NCBI GenBank assembly: GCA_900318015.1
Contig: ONJB01000015.1
Location: 33,661-97,660 of the forward strand
Source: an uncultured Bacteroidales bacterium
GTDB taxonomy: Bacteria > Bacteroidota > Bacteroidia > Bacteroidales > UBA932
Length of the DNA stretch: 64,000 bases
Direction of reading: 5' to 3'
A program made the translations under genes and the position numbers. This document shows, piece after piece, positions 56,080 through 60,490 of this stretch; positions within the stretch are counted from its first letter, which is position 1; each line of letters starts with the position of its first letter. Under the pieces are notes generated by a model. The model was not told where the DNA came from and did not search any database. It saw nothing but the letters and a program-made list of their open reading frames with translations.

Positions 56080-56843
56080 CTACCCCAATACGACATCGAG
56101 CACCATCATCAGGATGAAGCCGAGGGCGAATCCGATCGTGCCATATTCGAGTGCTCGCCCTGGGAATATTCCGGGACGAGCTCTTCGACTACGACATAGA
56201 GCATGGCACCGGCCGCAAAAGCCAGCATGTAGGGCATGATGCCCAGGATGGAGGTCGCCAGGAACAGGACCAATGCGCCGCCGACGGGTTCGACAATGCC
56301 GCTCAGCGCACCGATTCCGAACGATCTCCAGCGGGAGTTGCCCTCCGCCCGGAGCGGCATCGAAATGATGGCTCCTTCCGGTACGTTCTGGATGGCGATT
56401 CCCAGCGACAGGGCCAGGGCGCCGGCCATGTTGAAATCGGCCGTCAGGGCGCCTGCGATGGCGACGCCGACGGCCATTCCCTCCGGGAAGTTATGGATGG
56501 TGACCGCCAAAGCCAGCTTCGTGGTGCGCGAAAGGCGGCTTTCTGGGCCTTCCGGACCGCCGACCGGGTGGATGTGCGGGGTGATGTAGTCGATCAGCAG
56601 CAGGAAGGCGAAACCGGCCAGCAGGCCGACGGCGGGCGGGATGACGGCCGCGGCACCGCTGCCCATTTCGATGGACGGGATGATAAGGGACCATACGGAT
56701 GCCGCCACCATCACGCCGGAGGCGAATCCCAGCAGGACTTTCTGCAGCAGGGGAGGCATCTCCCTTTTCATGAAAAACACGAAGGCCGATCCCAGGGCTG
56801 TCCCCAGGAAAGGTATCAATAATGCGATCAGGACCGGACTCAT
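56080..56843 (-). pseudogene. ZIP family metal transporter with one-base frameshift before the last helix
   Basis: A ZIP (zinc/iron permease) protein from MSPVLIALLIPFLGTALGSA onward, with the metal-binding helix motifs LAVTIHNFPEGMAVG and IAIQNVPEGAIISMPL and a His-rich loop (YITPHIHPVGG). The frame ends early with NMARSDSPSASS after GEHS. Deleting one base near 56142-56144 explains this: restoring it gives a last helix GTIGFALGFILMMVLDVVLG and a stop at 56080, four bases from the esterase stop. Without the repair the final transmembrane helix is lost. A sequencing or assembly error is as likely as a true mutation. The ATG is 23 bases after a TAACTTTG box. Confidence 0.82.
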
Positions 56844-56866
56844 GGCAGGACGGTAGTTTGTCGCTG

Positions 56867-56905
56867 CAAAGTTAGGGATTATCCGGTTGCCGGACAATCC
56901 CTAAC
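56867..56905. repeat. Near-perfect inverted repeat over the ZIP promoter and cysE 3' end
   Basis: GTTAGGGATT (56871-56880) and AATCCCTAAC (56896-56905) are exact inverses, separated by TCCGG/CCGGA, with one A-C mismatch, loop TTG. The left arm overlaps the ZIP -7 box (TAACTTTG on the minus strand, 56867-56874), and the right arm lies just past the cysE stop. No U-run follows, so it may be an operator for a metal regulator or an end-of-transcript hairpin. Confidence 0.5.
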
Positions 56906-56915
56906 TGTTGGTATG

Positions 56916-57650
56916 TCAGATCCCGGCGCCGTCCAGGAACTCTTCGTGGGTCCTGCCCTGGAGAATCCTGGAATAGGGAGGAACGCTGTGGGTGAGCCAT
57001 ACGTTGCCTCCGATGACGGAACCTTCCCCGATCGTAATCCTTCCCAGCAAGGATGCGTTGCTGTAGACCGTGACGTTGTCCTCGATGACCGGATGACGCG
57101 GCACGTTCCTTGGCCTTCCCGACTCGTCGTACTTGAAGTTCTTCGCGCCGACAGTGACGCCTTGATAAAGGGTCACATGGTTCCCGATGACGGCAGTTTG
57201 GCCGACGACGACGCCGGTACCGTGGTCGATCGCGAAATGATGCCCGATCCGGGCCTGGGGATGGATGTCAATCCCCGTGGCAGAATGGGCATATTCCGTA
57301 AGCATCCGAGGAATAACCCCGACGCCGAGGCCGTCCAGTTCATGGGCGACCCGGTAATGGACCATAGCGGTGACGGCGGGGTAGCAGTAGACAATCTCCT
57401 GGGTATCGCTGGCGGCCGGATCGTTTCCGCCGATCGCTTCGACATCCTGGGCGAGAAGCTCCGCCAGGAAAGGGATCCTTTCCTGGAAGAGGGACGCTTT
57501 TTCCGGTCCGCATAGATTGGATAAAGCTTGCACTGCTTCGTCTACCGAACGCTCGTACGGGTTCGGGCTGTACTCCGGGAAGAAGGCGTCGAACAGGGAC
57601 TCCATCATCGCCCGGAGGGTGATCCGCATGGTTTTGACCGGAATATCCAT
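56916..57650 (-). CDS. cysE: Serine O-acetyltransferase
   Basis: 244 residues. An N-terminal helical region is followed by a left-handed beta-helix of hexapeptide repeats: TGIDIHPQARIGHHFAIDHGTGVVVGQT contains the catalytic His/Asp pair in two segments, then VTLYQGVTVGAKNFK and IGEGSVIGGNVWLTHSVPP. It acetylates serine to O-acetylserine for cysteine synthesis. The C terminus ends soon after the hexapeptide region. It follows cysK by six bases and shares its attenuated transcript, so serine activation and sulfide addition are regulated together. Confidence 0.92.
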   Translation of the reverse strand: MDIPVKTMRITLRAMMESLFDAFFPEYSPNPYERSVDEAVQALSNLCGPEKASLFQERIPFLAELLAQDVEAIGGNDPAASDTQEIVYCYPAVTAMVHYRVAHELDGLGVGVIPRMLTEYAHSATGIDIHPQARIGHHFAIDHGTGVVVGQTAVIGNHVTLYQGVTVGAKNFKYDESGRPRNVPRHPVIEDNVTVYSNASLLGRITIGEGSVIGGNVWLTHSVPPYSRILQGRTHEEFLDGAGI

Positions 57651-57656
57651 CGCTGA

Positions 57657-58577
57657 TCAGTTTCGGTAGAACAGGCCGGTGGACAGGTATCTTTCTCCCG
57701 TATCCGGAAGAAGTGCCACGATCATCTTTCCGGCGAAGCGTTCCTCACGGGCGAGAGAGAGGGCGGCAAAGAAGGAGGCTCCGGATGATATGCCCACAAG
57801 CAGCCCTTCCTTCGCAGCAAGCAGCCGGGATGAAGCGGCGGCATCCTCGTCCGAGACAGGAATCACTTGGTCGATGACGGTGGCATCATACGTCGCCGGC
57901 ACGAATCCCGCTCCGATTCCCTGGATCTTGTGGCTTCCGCTTCTTCCTTGCGTTAGGACAGGACTCCCGGAAGGTTCCACGGCTACGACCTGCAAGGAGG
58001 GTTTATGCCTTTTCAGGGCCCTTCCGGTGCCGCTGACCGTTCCGCCGGTCCCGACACCGCCGACAAACACGTCGACCGCTCCATCGGTATCCCGCCAGAT
58101 TTCCTCGGCGGTCGTCCGCTCGTGGGCGAGGGGATTGGAGGGATTGACAAACTGACCGAGAATGACGGAGCCGGGGATGGACTCCTTCAGTTCCTGGGCC
58201 TTGGCGATTGCACCCTTCATTCCCTGGGAGGCGGGGGTGAGCTCCAGCCTGGCACCTAACGCGGCCAGCAGGTTCCTTCTTTCGAGGCTCATCGACTCAG
58301 GCATCGTGAGGATTACCTTGTATCCTTTCGACGTCCCGACCCAGGCGAGGCCGACGCCGGTATTTCCGCTGGTGGGCTCGATGATGGTGGCGCCGGACTG
58401 GAGGAGACCGTCCTTCTCGGCGTCCCGGATCATTTGGAGAGCAATCCGGTCTTTGACCGAGCCGCCGGGGTTGAAGGCTTCGATTTTCAGGATGAGGCGG
58501 GCTTTCTGCCCTTCGAATCCGCTGACCTCCAGGAGGGGCGTGTTCCCGATGAGGTCCGTGAGTGATTTGTAGATCAT
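57657..58577 (-). CDS. cysK: Cysteine synthase (O-acetylserine sulfhydrylase)
   Basis: 306 residues, fold type II PLP enzyme. NPGGSVKDRIAL holds the PLP lysine, EPTSGNTGVGLAWV binds the substrate carboxylate, VGGVGTGGTVSGTGRAL the phosphate, and GISSGASFFAAL the C-terminal serine loop. It makes cysteine from O-acetylserine and sulfide. It is the first structural gene after a leader with a Cys-rich peptide and an intrinsic terminator, and leads into cysE. Confidence 0.95.
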   Translation of the reverse strand: MIYKSLTDLIGNTPLLEVSGFEGQKARLILKIEAFNPGGSVKDRIALQMIRDAEKDGLLQSGATIIEPTSGNTGVGLAWVGTSKGYKVILTMPESMSLERRNLLAALGARLELTPASQGMKGAIAKAQELKESIPGSVILGQFVNPSNPLAHERTTAEEIWRDTDGAVDVFVGGVGTGGTVSGTGRALKRHKPSLQVVAVEPSGSPVLTQGRSGSHKIQGIGAGFVPATYDATVIDQVIPVSDEDAAASSRLLAAKEGLLVGISSGASFFAALSLAREERFAGKMIVALLPDTGERYLSTGLFYRN

Positions 58578-58621
58578 GGTTTGTTCGTTTTATATAAGTG
58601 AATAATGTGCTTTGATGGCAT

Positions 58622-58657
58622 AAAAAAGAATGCACCGTCCTCTCCAGGATGATGCAT
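58622..58657 (-). terminator. Attenuator terminator in the cysK leader (segments 3:4)
   Basis: Minus strand: ATGCATCATCC pairs with GGACGGTGCAT (one mismatch, one G-U) around a six-base loop, followed by UC and six U. It lies 44 bases before the cysK ATG, within the leader. Confidence 0.85.
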
Positions 58658-58732
58658 CTATACGCTTTCCCGCGCGGGGAATCTGTCAGGATATACCTGT
58701 CAACAACGCGTGCACCATCCTTCCGGGGTGGT
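58647..58732 (-). promoter_or_regulatory. Alternative RNA pairings of the cysK attenuator (segments 1, 2, 3)
   Basis: Read on the minus strand, segment 1 (58724-58732 and a few bases above) pairs with segment 2 GGATGGTGC (58712-58720). Segment 2 can instead pair over nine positions (one G-U) with segment 3 GCATCATCC (58647-58655), which would otherwise form the terminator with segment 4. Segments 2 and 4 differ by one base. A ribosome held at the three Cys codons would mask segment 1 and free segment 2 for the antiterminator. Confidence 0.7.
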
Positions 58733-58747
58733 ACAACAACAGGTCAT
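58700..58747 (-). CDS. Cysteine-rich leader peptide of cysK-cysE
   Basis: A 15-codon frame reading MTCCCTTPEGWCTRC then UGA, with five cysteines, three of them consecutive at codons 3-5. It starts about 30 bases into the transcript predicted from the promoter upstream and ends 42 bases before the terminator. Cys codons are normally rare, so five of fifteen directly upstream of a cysteine synthase gene is unlikely to be chance. It has no obvious Shine-Dalgarno sequence, as usual for Bacteroidetes. Confidence 0.75.
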   Translation of the reverse strand: MTCCCTTPEGWCTRC

Positions 58748-58783
58748 ATGCAGATTCTGACGCACAGGTACAGATGTCTCTGG

Positions 58784-58816
58784 CAAATTTAATTAAAAAT
58801 TTTTTAAAATCGCAAA
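58784..58816 (-). promoter_or_regulatory. Promoter of the cysK-cysE operon
   Basis: Minus strand: TTTG (58813-58816), 21-base spacer and TAAATTTG (58784-58791), a full consensus. It predicts a leader of about 200 bases before cysK. Confidence 0.75.
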
Positions 58817-58897: not shown

Positions 58898-60490
58898 ATG
58901 TTAGTCAAGTGTATCCTTCTCATCCTGTTCTTTGCCGTGATGATCGGGGGCGGCATCTATTGCCGGCGGACCGCATCTGATGTTCAGGGTTTCGTCCTGG
59001 GAGGCCGCAATGTCGGCTCCTGGCTTACGGCATTCGCATTCGGTACGTCCTACTTCTCGGCGGTCATCTTCGTCGGCTACGCCGGTCAGTTCGGCTGGAA
59101 ATACGGTCTGGCCGCCACCTGGATCGGCCTGGGCAACGCCCTCATCGGCTCGCTCCTGGCCTGGCGGATCCTGGGTCGCCGCACGCGCCTGATGACGCAG
59201 CATCTGCAGAGCGCCACGATGCCCGATTTCTTCGGGAAGCGTTTCTTCAGCACCCCGCTCAAGGTCGCCGCGTCCGTCATCGTGTTCATTTTCCTGATTC
59301 CTTATACTGCGTCGCTCTATAACGGCCTCTCACGACTTTTCAGCATGGCTTTCCATGTGGATTACGTCTGGTGCGTGGTAGGCATGGCCGTCCTCACCGG
59401 CATCTACGTGGTGGTCGGCGGTTACATGGCGACAGCCGTGAACGATTTCATCCAGGGATTGATCATGCTGGTGGGCATCTGCGCCGTCATCGCGTCCGTG
59501 CTCAACGGAAATGGCGGCTTCACCGCGGCTGTGGAGAGTCTGTCGCAGATTCCGTCCGAGTCGGCGCCCGCGCTGAACGGCGCTTTTGTCTCTTTCCTGG
59601 GGCCGCAGCCCATCTACCTGCTGGGTGTGGTGATGTTGACCTCCCTGGGTACCTGGGGACTGCCGCAGATGGTGGGCAAGTTCTACGCGATCCGCAACGA
59701 GGCGGCCATCCGCAAGGGTACGTTCATCTCCACCTTCTTCGCCATCATCGTGGCGGGCGGATGCTATTTCCTGGGCGGTTTCGGCCGGCTGTACGGCCAG
59801 TCCATCGAGTACACCGCAGCCGGTACGCCGGTTTACGACAGCATCGTCCCGTCCATGCTCGCCACCCTGCCGGACCTGATGATCGGCGTCGTGATCATCC
59901 TGGTCCTCTCCGCGTCTATGTCGACCTTGTCCTCGCTGGTGCTCACCTCCGGATCCACGCTGACGCTGGACATCATTGACCCCGCCATGGCCAAAGCACG
60001 TCAGGGCAAGCATATGACGGACCGCACCCAGCTGCTCAGCATCCGGTTGCTCGTGCTGTTCTTCATCATCGTCTCTTCCGTGATCGCCATCGTCCAGGCC
60101 AAGAGCTCCGTGACCTTCATCGCGCAGCTCATGGGCATTTCCTGGGGCGCGCTGGCCGGCGCTTTCCTGGCCCCGTTCCTGTACGGCCTCTACTGGAAGC
60201 GCACGACTTCCGCCTCGGTCTGGGCCTCCTTCATCGTGGGCGTGGGGGTGATGTGCGGCTGCATGTACTGCACCTTCACGGGCAAGACTTTCATCAGCCC
60301 GTACTTCACTTCACCGATCAATGCCGGTATGCTGGCGATGCTGCTGGGCCTGGTGGTCGTGCCCGTGGTAAGCCTCTGCACCAAGCAAAGCCGGAAAGCG
60401 GAGGTCGACGAGATGTTCAGCTGCTACAGCAGCACGGTGAAGGTCCGCGCCACGGACGCCCTGTCCGAGGAAACGGAACAGCAGGACTAG
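58898..60490 (+). CDS. Sodium:solute symporter family protein
   Basis: 530 residues with about 13 membrane segments of the SSS (LeuT-fold) family. AFAFGTSYFSAVIFVGYAG in helix 1 and LSASMSTLSSLVLTSGSTLT in helix 8 hold the Na+-site serines and threonines; VVGGYMATAVNDFIQGLIM is the conserved helix 5-6 signature. The solute (amino acid, sugar, vitamin or sialic acid) cannot be told. It overlaps the convergent DUF2490 gene by four bases. Confidence 0.9.
   Translation: MLVKCILLILFFAVMIGGGIYCRRTASDVQGFVLGGRNVGSWLTAFAFGTSYFSAVIFVGYAGQFGWKYGLAATWIGLGNALIGSLLAWRILGRRTRLMTQHLQSATMPDFFGKRFFSTPLKVAASVIVFIFLIPYTASLYNGLSRLFSMAFHVDYVWCVVGMAVLTGIYVVVGGYMATAVNDFIQGLIMLVGICAVIASVLNGNGGFTAAVESLSQIPSESAPALNGAFVSFLGPQPIYLLGVVMLTSLGTWGLPQMVGKFYAIRNEAAIRKGTFISTFFAIIVAGGCYFLGGFGRLYGQSIEYTAAGTPVYDSIVPSMLATLPDLMIGVVIILVLSASMSTLSSLVLTSGSTLTLDIIDPAMAKARQGKHMTDRTQLLSIRLLVLFFIIVSSVIAIVQAKSSVTFIAQLMGISWGALAGAFLAPFLYGLYWKRTTSASVWASFIVGVGVMCGCMYCTFTGKTFISPYFTSPINAGMLAMLLGLVVVPVVSLCTKQSRKAEVDEMFSCYSSTVKVRATDALSEETEQQD

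Follow-up and report, generated by a model that had tools for sequence, protein, structure and literature searches.

A probable cysteine-sensing leader-peptide attenuator upstream of cysK–cysE in an uncultured Bacteroidales bacterium, with counterparts in other Bacteroidota

The trp/his-type leader-peptide attenuators are known from Proteobacteria. The cysK–cysE leader described here shared with them a short frame enriched in codons for the amino acid under control, mutually exclusive pairings 1:2/2:3/3:4, a U-tailed terminator, and a position before a biosynthetic operon, but it differed in the amino acid sensed (Cys), the Bacteroidetes-type promoter, the host phylum, and the lack of any match to an Rfam leader family. 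Two described groups of leaders resembled it in their Cys codons: (i) the uORFC-8-2 motif, found before cysS (cysteinyl-tRNA synthetase) in Rhodobacterales of Alphaproteobacteria, which, in the accessible text of its report, had a short frame carrying two Cys codons in tandem (usually at positions 14–15, inside the first stem), hairpins, a U run, and inferred tRNA-Cys sensing (PMC8632094); and (ii) the polycysteine frames of mycobacteria, cysteine-responsive and called leaderless (Canestrari 2020, as cited in PMC13236596 and PMC9094748), together with the actinobacterial cys leaders, where Cys codon runs likewise preceded cysteine genes and no obvious terminator was noted in the available part of the report (PMC1262725). 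Compared with the accessible description of uORFC-8-2, the leaders studied here preceded cysK/cysE instead of cysS and mostly had three to five clustered Cys codons just before stem 1:2; compared with the mycobacterial and actinobacterial leaders as excerpted, they had a terminator with a covarying antiterminator plus a predicted 5′ UTR.

Within Bacteroidota, leader-peptide attenuation of amino-acid operons was suggested in 2021 for Flavobacterium psychrophilum, with no cysteine case named in the accessible text (PMC9723704), and sORFs in long 5′ UTRs were reported for Bacteroides thetaiotaomicron, again with no Cys case in the part available (PMC7366714). A Streptomyces survey listed eight leaders, none for Cys in its accessible sections (PMC8079986), and a 2010 survey of premature terminators covered no Bacteroidetes in its main text as available (PMC2965389). 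No earlier report of a Cys attenuator in Bacteroidota was found in the open-access literature, and the claim of novelty is limited to that literature because subscription papers mostly lay beyond the search. Within that literature, the statement in the initial annotation that no such case was known in Bacteroidetes held for Cys, with the qualification that leader attenuation of amino-acid operons had already been suggested for F. psychrophilum. Since Cys attenuators are known elsewhere, the Bacteroidota element is not a new kind of mechanism; it is a predicted new amino-acid/phylum combination of a classical one, well supported by sequence comparison.

The window (the whole 64,000-nt stretch of DNA analyzed) carried the element on the minus strand at 58578–58816, between a divergent symporter gene (58898–60490; PF00474) and cysK, and the promoter, leader frame, four pairing segments, and six-U terminator announced by the initial annotation were all located there. 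The predicted promoter (58784–58816) was composed of TTTG (58816–58813), a 21-nt spacer, and TAAATTTG (58791–58784), an arrangement that follows the Bacteroidetes −33/−7 promoter pattern; it was not among the matches of a sigma-70 scan of the window. Counted from the predicted transcription start, the 5′ UTR of the window leader would be about 12–30 nt. TAnnTTTG or a near match was present 36–61 nt 5′ of the Cys codons in 19 of the 26 leaders of the family (see below), 17 of which also had the upstream TTG, and was absent at this distance from the other seven (G066, G149, G014, G096, G033, G021, and G001, the last with its leader region cut by a contig end).

The leader ORF, read from ATG to TGA, encoded MTCCCTTPEGWCTRC (58747–58700, TGA at 58702–58700), and it contained the run TGT TGT TGT (58733–58741), the proposed ribosome stall site. 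The Cys-rich frame, first described as having 15 codons, was conserved in the 26 family leaders, but its ATG was not. In the two nearest relatives (G148 and G063), the same frame could be started at a GTG, and because these relatives keep the GTG and lack the ATG, the in-frame GTG at 58765 may be the start of the frame; the longer version (58700–58765, read by eye in the window) may then specify the real leader peptide, VRQNLHMTCCCTTPEGWCTRC.

Downstream of the element, cysK (57657–58577, minus strand) encoded cysteine synthase A, i.e., O-acetylserine sulfhydrylase (TIGR01139, 429 bits against a cut-off of 351), and 6 nt after it lay a cysE-like serine O-acetyltransferase gene (56916–57650, minus strand), whose best match was TIGR01172 (E 1.1e-43, 149 bits, below the cut-off of 210.65) plus PF00132 hexapeptide. 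A ZIP-family metal transporter gene (56109–56897, minus strand; PF02535, with ZupT as the nearest NCBIfam model, below its cut-off) started 18 nt past cysE and may be co-transcribed with cysK–cysE.

Four pairing segments were recognized on the minus strand: (i) segment 1 (UACCACCC, 58733–58726), which could pair with segment 2 as a pause/protector hairpin; (ii) segment 2 (GGATGGTGCA/GGAUGGUGCA, 58720–58711), a partner for segment 1 or 3; (iii) segment 3 (TGCATCATCC/UGCAUCAUCC, 58656–58647), the 5′ arm of the terminator, a partner for segment 2 (antiterminator) or 4; and (iv) segment 4 (GGACGGTGCA/GGACGGUGCA, 58640–58631), the 3′ arm of the terminator. Segments 2 and 4 differed by a single base, and the 2:3 helix comprised ten pairs, one of them G-U. 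The intrinsic terminator (58622–58658), identified by folding and sequence, had its stem at 58658–58629 (folding energy −14.9 kcal/mol), followed by C and six U (58628–58622), and the end of the U run was 44 nt from cysK. A simple terminator scan of the window called no terminator at the leader, probably because an A·C mismatch interrupts the stem.

The element is very probably a ribosome-mediated transcription attenuator of the trp/his kind that senses charged tRNA-Cys. Transcription would start just past the promoter, and a ribosome would translate the leader frame behind RNA polymerase. Given ample Cys-tRNA, the ribosome would reach the stop codon and cover segment 2, the 3:4 terminator would form, and cysK–cysE would be off; with scarce Cys-tRNA, it would stall on the TGT run with segment 1 covered and segment 2 free, 2:3 would pair, the terminator would be blocked, and the operon would be read. 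Without translation, 1:2 and 3:4 would both form, making termination the default. This model presupposes that the leader is translated from the proposed start, that ribosome and polymerase are coupled, that transcription begins at the predicted site, and that the operon responds to cysteine, all of which we infer.

The sequence comparison was applied to the upstream regions of cysK genes in the genus and the family. The genus sample comprised 151 genomes, 52 of them with a cysK match at E ≤ 1e-100, and gave 59 places (58 usable); the family sample comprised 199 genomes, 41 with a cysK match, and gave 38 further usable places after exclusion of one partial place. L003 (on the same contig as G011), G054:C133 (which begins at a contig end), and G286:C24 (a partial match) were excluded before counting. 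A Cys-rich mini-ORF followed by a terminator was found in 26 of the 96 regions: the genus (g1) gave 19 of 58 and the other genera gave 7 of 38, each of these seven belonging to genus g15, with none in the remaining genera sampled from the family. Two of the 26 were decided by hand, namely G063 for its terminator (a C precedes the U run) and G062 for its two-Cys frame. By the terminator finder alone, a hairpin was present in 24 of the 27 regions that had a Cys frame and in 7 of the 57 that lacked one (duplicate L003 removed), one of these seven being G062, whose two-Cys frame was added by hand. Individual leaders departed from the common layout: G062 had only two Cys and a stop codon before segment 2, G080 had its stop inside segment 2, and G012 had a Cys5 frame with no U-run hairpin found. 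An orphan Cys leader (L299, G009:C169) had no terminator and an unrelated gene downstream, and it is either a contig join error or a relic.

When 230-nt upstream regions were dinucleotide-shuffled, 2.2% came to hold a mini-ORF with at least three Cys in five codons; such a frame was seen on none of the reverse strands of the 26 positives and in one of the 58 negatives. The 26 leaders used TGT 90 times and TGC 28 times as Cys codons. Leaders such as MSACCCCCFAPVSDWYGKPAL, MTRIYSSVCCCCTILSDWYGV, MRNFAAYACCCCTCPAGWYGVLCA, and MCCCCAIRKVGRRCRAY had little in common besides the Cys run, and a DNA search with the window leader matched no more than 3 of 151 genomes, namely that of the window and those of its two nearest relatives; what appears conserved is thus the logic of the leader, its sequence being little conserved. 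The Cys-run columns were among the most conserved in alignment A1 (26 rows, with G105 visibly misaligned), although their position was 5′ to the predicted stems or on the stem border. Conserved Cys runs, and the extra Cys in some leaders, would also be expected if the Cys-rich mini-protein were itself the product, e.g., a metal- or redox-binding peptide, but the peptides varied freely outside the Cys run while the RNA pairings behind it covaried, and this reading is very unlikely.

Aligning related leaders in search of conserved Cys frames and covarying stems, as the initial annotation had advised, yielded both: besides the Cys frames counted above, compensatory changes were found in all three pairings 1:2, 2:3, and 3:4. 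Unguided RNAalifold on A1 returned only helices 1:2 and 3:4, with double changes at 10 of 13 pairs: (i) 88.5% of cells paired and double changes at three of six pairs in 1:2, and (ii) 94.9% paired and double changes at all seven pairs in 3:4. A ligand-binding riboswitch or T-box, with the Cys codons as decoration, would show similar switching between terminator and antiterminator; no further helix of this sort came out of the RNAalifold run, however, no Rfam family reached the gathering threshold within the window, and the search over the leader, with E 5 as the limit, gave just two matches, whose scores fell far short of gathering, so that such control of the operon is hardly credible.

When the attenuator pairings were scored as named structures, 2:3 had 90.8% of cells paired and 24 double-change cells (0 of 500 shuffles as high), with 25–47% paired in controls slid along the alignment, and 1:2 plus 3:4 had 91.8% paired and 57 double-change cells (0 of 500 as high). 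Three of the five pair-count measures exceeded all 500 shuffles and two did not: the count of pairs showing a double change (35 of 500 as high for 2:3, 54 of 500 for 1:2 plus 3:4) and the further pair types (175 of 500 and 113 of 500, respectively) fell within the shuffles. These shuffles leave relatedness in, and the slid controls and a partner swap handle it better. Across the 26 leaders, 2:3 duplexes had a mean z of −2.45 against shuffled sequences, with p < 0.05 in 16 leaders and no significance in the other 10 taken singly; when segments 2 and 3 were swapped among 16 non-redundant leaders (one per close group), 0 of 100,000 permutations paired as well. A chance frame beside chance hairpins would fit the eight TGYTGYTGY runs in the window (2.5 expected), the run alone being not rare, yet conservation, covariation, and association with cysK/cysE speak against it, and the partner swap together with the shuffles refutes it, leaving it a negligible probability. 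The weight is on the combination of elements and their conservation, not on the TGY run alone. A search of the window's own genome for TGYTGYTGY gave 272 places, fewer than the 544 in the reversed control, and was set aside.

The spacing was likewise compared among the 26 leaders. The last clustered Cys codon preceded the segment-2 core by a median of 12 nt (range 5–17), exactly 12 nt in 12 leaders, and the stop codon followed segment 2 by a median of 14 nt (range −10 to 17). A ribosome covers about 12–15 nt ahead of its decoding site. With this footprint and spacing, a stalled ribosome would hide segment 1 and free segment 2, and a ribosome at the stop codon would hide segment 2. Of the trp/his-type logic proposed at the outset, the leader codon run, terminator, 2:3 antiterminator, 1:2 hairpin, and spacing were recovered; what the comparison supported was the leader frame with its Cys codons, all three alternative pairings, the spacing, and the downstream genes. 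Control by the Cys frame without any terminator choice (through Rho or translation coupling, the hairpin being incidental) has precedents in the cysteine-responsive polycysteine-frame attenuators of mycobacteria (Canestrari 2020, as cited in PMC13236596 and PMC9094748) and in actinobacterial candidate cys leaders described, in the accessible text, as having no terminators (PMC1262725), but a covarying intrinsic terminator plus antiterminator at near-constant spacing makes it unlikely here.

Counterparts of the element were sought beyond these cysK regions with two covariance models, R1 and R2. R1 over 300 genus genomes gave matches at E ≤ 0.01 in 51, and among its 14 non-training places at E < 1e-6, cysK was the next gene in 13 and a contig end in one (G001:C74); a Cys frame was visible in 12 of those 13, with G355 cut by a contig start. 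Over 393 order genomes, R1 matched 99 at E ≤ 0.01, many on the terminator end of the model only, and the 16 such loci that were read included two Cys leaders (G740 and G768) and one Trp leader. Upstream regions of cysE in other families had a Cys leader in 8 of 45 distinct genes, these eight being mostly among the less similar cysE (20 hand-picked plus 29 best-scoring loci, four of them the same genes): seven of the 20 hand-picked, and one more among the 29 best-scoring (L333/G705, frame MIQKNFNGGFISVQGNCCCCLIR, by model R2 and frame scan). A Cys-cluster frame with no clear leader position or terminator was also seen in cysE regions of G700 (L360/L315), G838 (L316), and G513 (L339), which were left uncounted.

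R2 at E ≤ 0.001 matched 32 of the 198 genomes sampled from the phylum and 34 of the 198 sampled from the order; 43 R2 loci were read beside the training ones, giving further leaders in G664, G688 (start codon ambiguous), G644, G513, G1023, and G902, and the remainder were other amino-acid leaders or none recognized. In all, 16 places outside the family had a Cys leader before cysE, cysE–cysK, or cysK: the order contributed 14, spread over 10 further families, and the remaining two (G1023 and G902) came from outside the class. Since R2 did not match the window's own element, the two groups are distinct in sequence, and only their logic unites them here. The same switch thus appears to be present in many Bacteroidota. 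Cys leaders with terminators were also seen in G715 (L397) and G1007 (L362), the genes downstream being OsmC-like and, at a distance of about 200 nt, one for carbonic anhydrase, a possible wider Cys regulon.

Because the terminator helix was the only one built into R1, the new genus leaders tested the 2:3 pairing on fresh material. Twelve genus leaders outside R1 training (two of which, L243 and L247, were near-copies) had a mean z of −2.1, with p < 0.05 in eight, no single-leader significance in four, and 26 of 100,000 swaps as low. For leaders from beyond the family, 16 in number (nine from the R2 alignment and two, G740 and G768, obtained via R1, none chosen by 2:3 pairing), the mean z was −2.4, with p < 0.05 in 10, no single-leader significance in six, and 0 of 100,000 swaps as low. 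L256 (G422), where the terminator finder took the wrong hairpin, was counted as a failed case in these 2:3 tests.

The Cys leader was absent from 70 of the 96 family cysK genes, which were labeled by pattern search: (i) about 26 after metY in an operon (two of these labels, on members of the palindrome clade, are probably errors), (ii) 16 with an upstream palindrome, and (iii) 28 others. The palindrome, like AAAATACCACAAATGTGGTATTTC, lay just 5′ of the cysK promoter in place of the leader in genera g9, g14, g20, g21, g24, and g25 (e.g., L181, L183, and L207–L216) and is probably the operator of a regulator. Upstream of metY in 18 metY–cysK operons, no Cys/Met/Trp cluster frame was found (0 of 18, with L222 scanned from a wrong gene start); these operons (L217–L234) adjoined a divergent gene that was Lrp/AsnC-like by eye. 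On a tree of the 96 cysK proteins, the leader label required 10 changes versus 23 in shuffles, so the leader was clustered, yet not confined to one clade; 25 of the 26 leader-bearing cysK fell within one supported group of 55 rows. The simplest reading of this distribution is an old element that was lost when cysK joined other operons, and G105, which sits apart from that group at the end of a long branch, may have gained its leader separately.

Leaders for other amino acids were encountered in the same searches: (i) Trp leaders with terminators before trpB-like genes (L297, L298, and L307 in G015, G059, and G807; MIYSNSYWWWRFYNFNKS and MSKILCANWWWLFKLQQKW, by eye), the trpB identity being confirmed downstream of L297; (ii) a Thr leader with eight consecutive Thr (MRFNLTTTTTTTTGQFYWHG, by eye; L300, G011:C75), followed by a terminator and a homoserine kinase gene; (iii) Ile/Val-rich leaders before ilvD-like genes (L365, L367, L369, and L381, of which only L365 had its ilvD confirmed), before a gene for an ACT-domain-like protein that scored under the Pfam cut-off (L368), and before ilvE (L405); (iv) a Phe-rich leader (MAPVHTYYAWSFFFFYFQNKRGHAV; L411, G514) before a prephenate dehydrogenase-like gene; and (v) Met or mixed Met/Cys leaders, e.g., MNTITNMSIILLTSTACMMMMCCMQNFARGRLLYCL, before metY 230 nt on (L387), a metY-like gene at 826 nt (L374), and cysH (L376), with no obvious target gene for L366. 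R1 and R2 had thus caught leaders other than those for Cys, and covariance models of this kind are a practical route to mapping such switches. We favor, with moderate confidence, the view that leader-peptide attenuation is a general and old form of amino-acid control across Bacteroidota, in which the Cys switch at cysE/cysK is the widest branch within a wider set (Cys/Met before metY and cysH; Trp, Thr, Ile/Val, and Phe before their own operons) and has been repeatedly swapped for metY–cysK operons or a palindrome-type operator.

Of more interest than the single element is how widely the switch occurs in Bacteroidota, for which it offers a testable cysteine-supply circuit without a dedicated regulator protein. 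Translation initiation in Bacteroidota proceeds largely without Shine-Dalgarno pairing, and Shine-Dalgarno use is weak. If the proposed mechanism is true, close transcription–translation coupling would be required at these operons in a phylum with such scant Shine-Dalgarno use.
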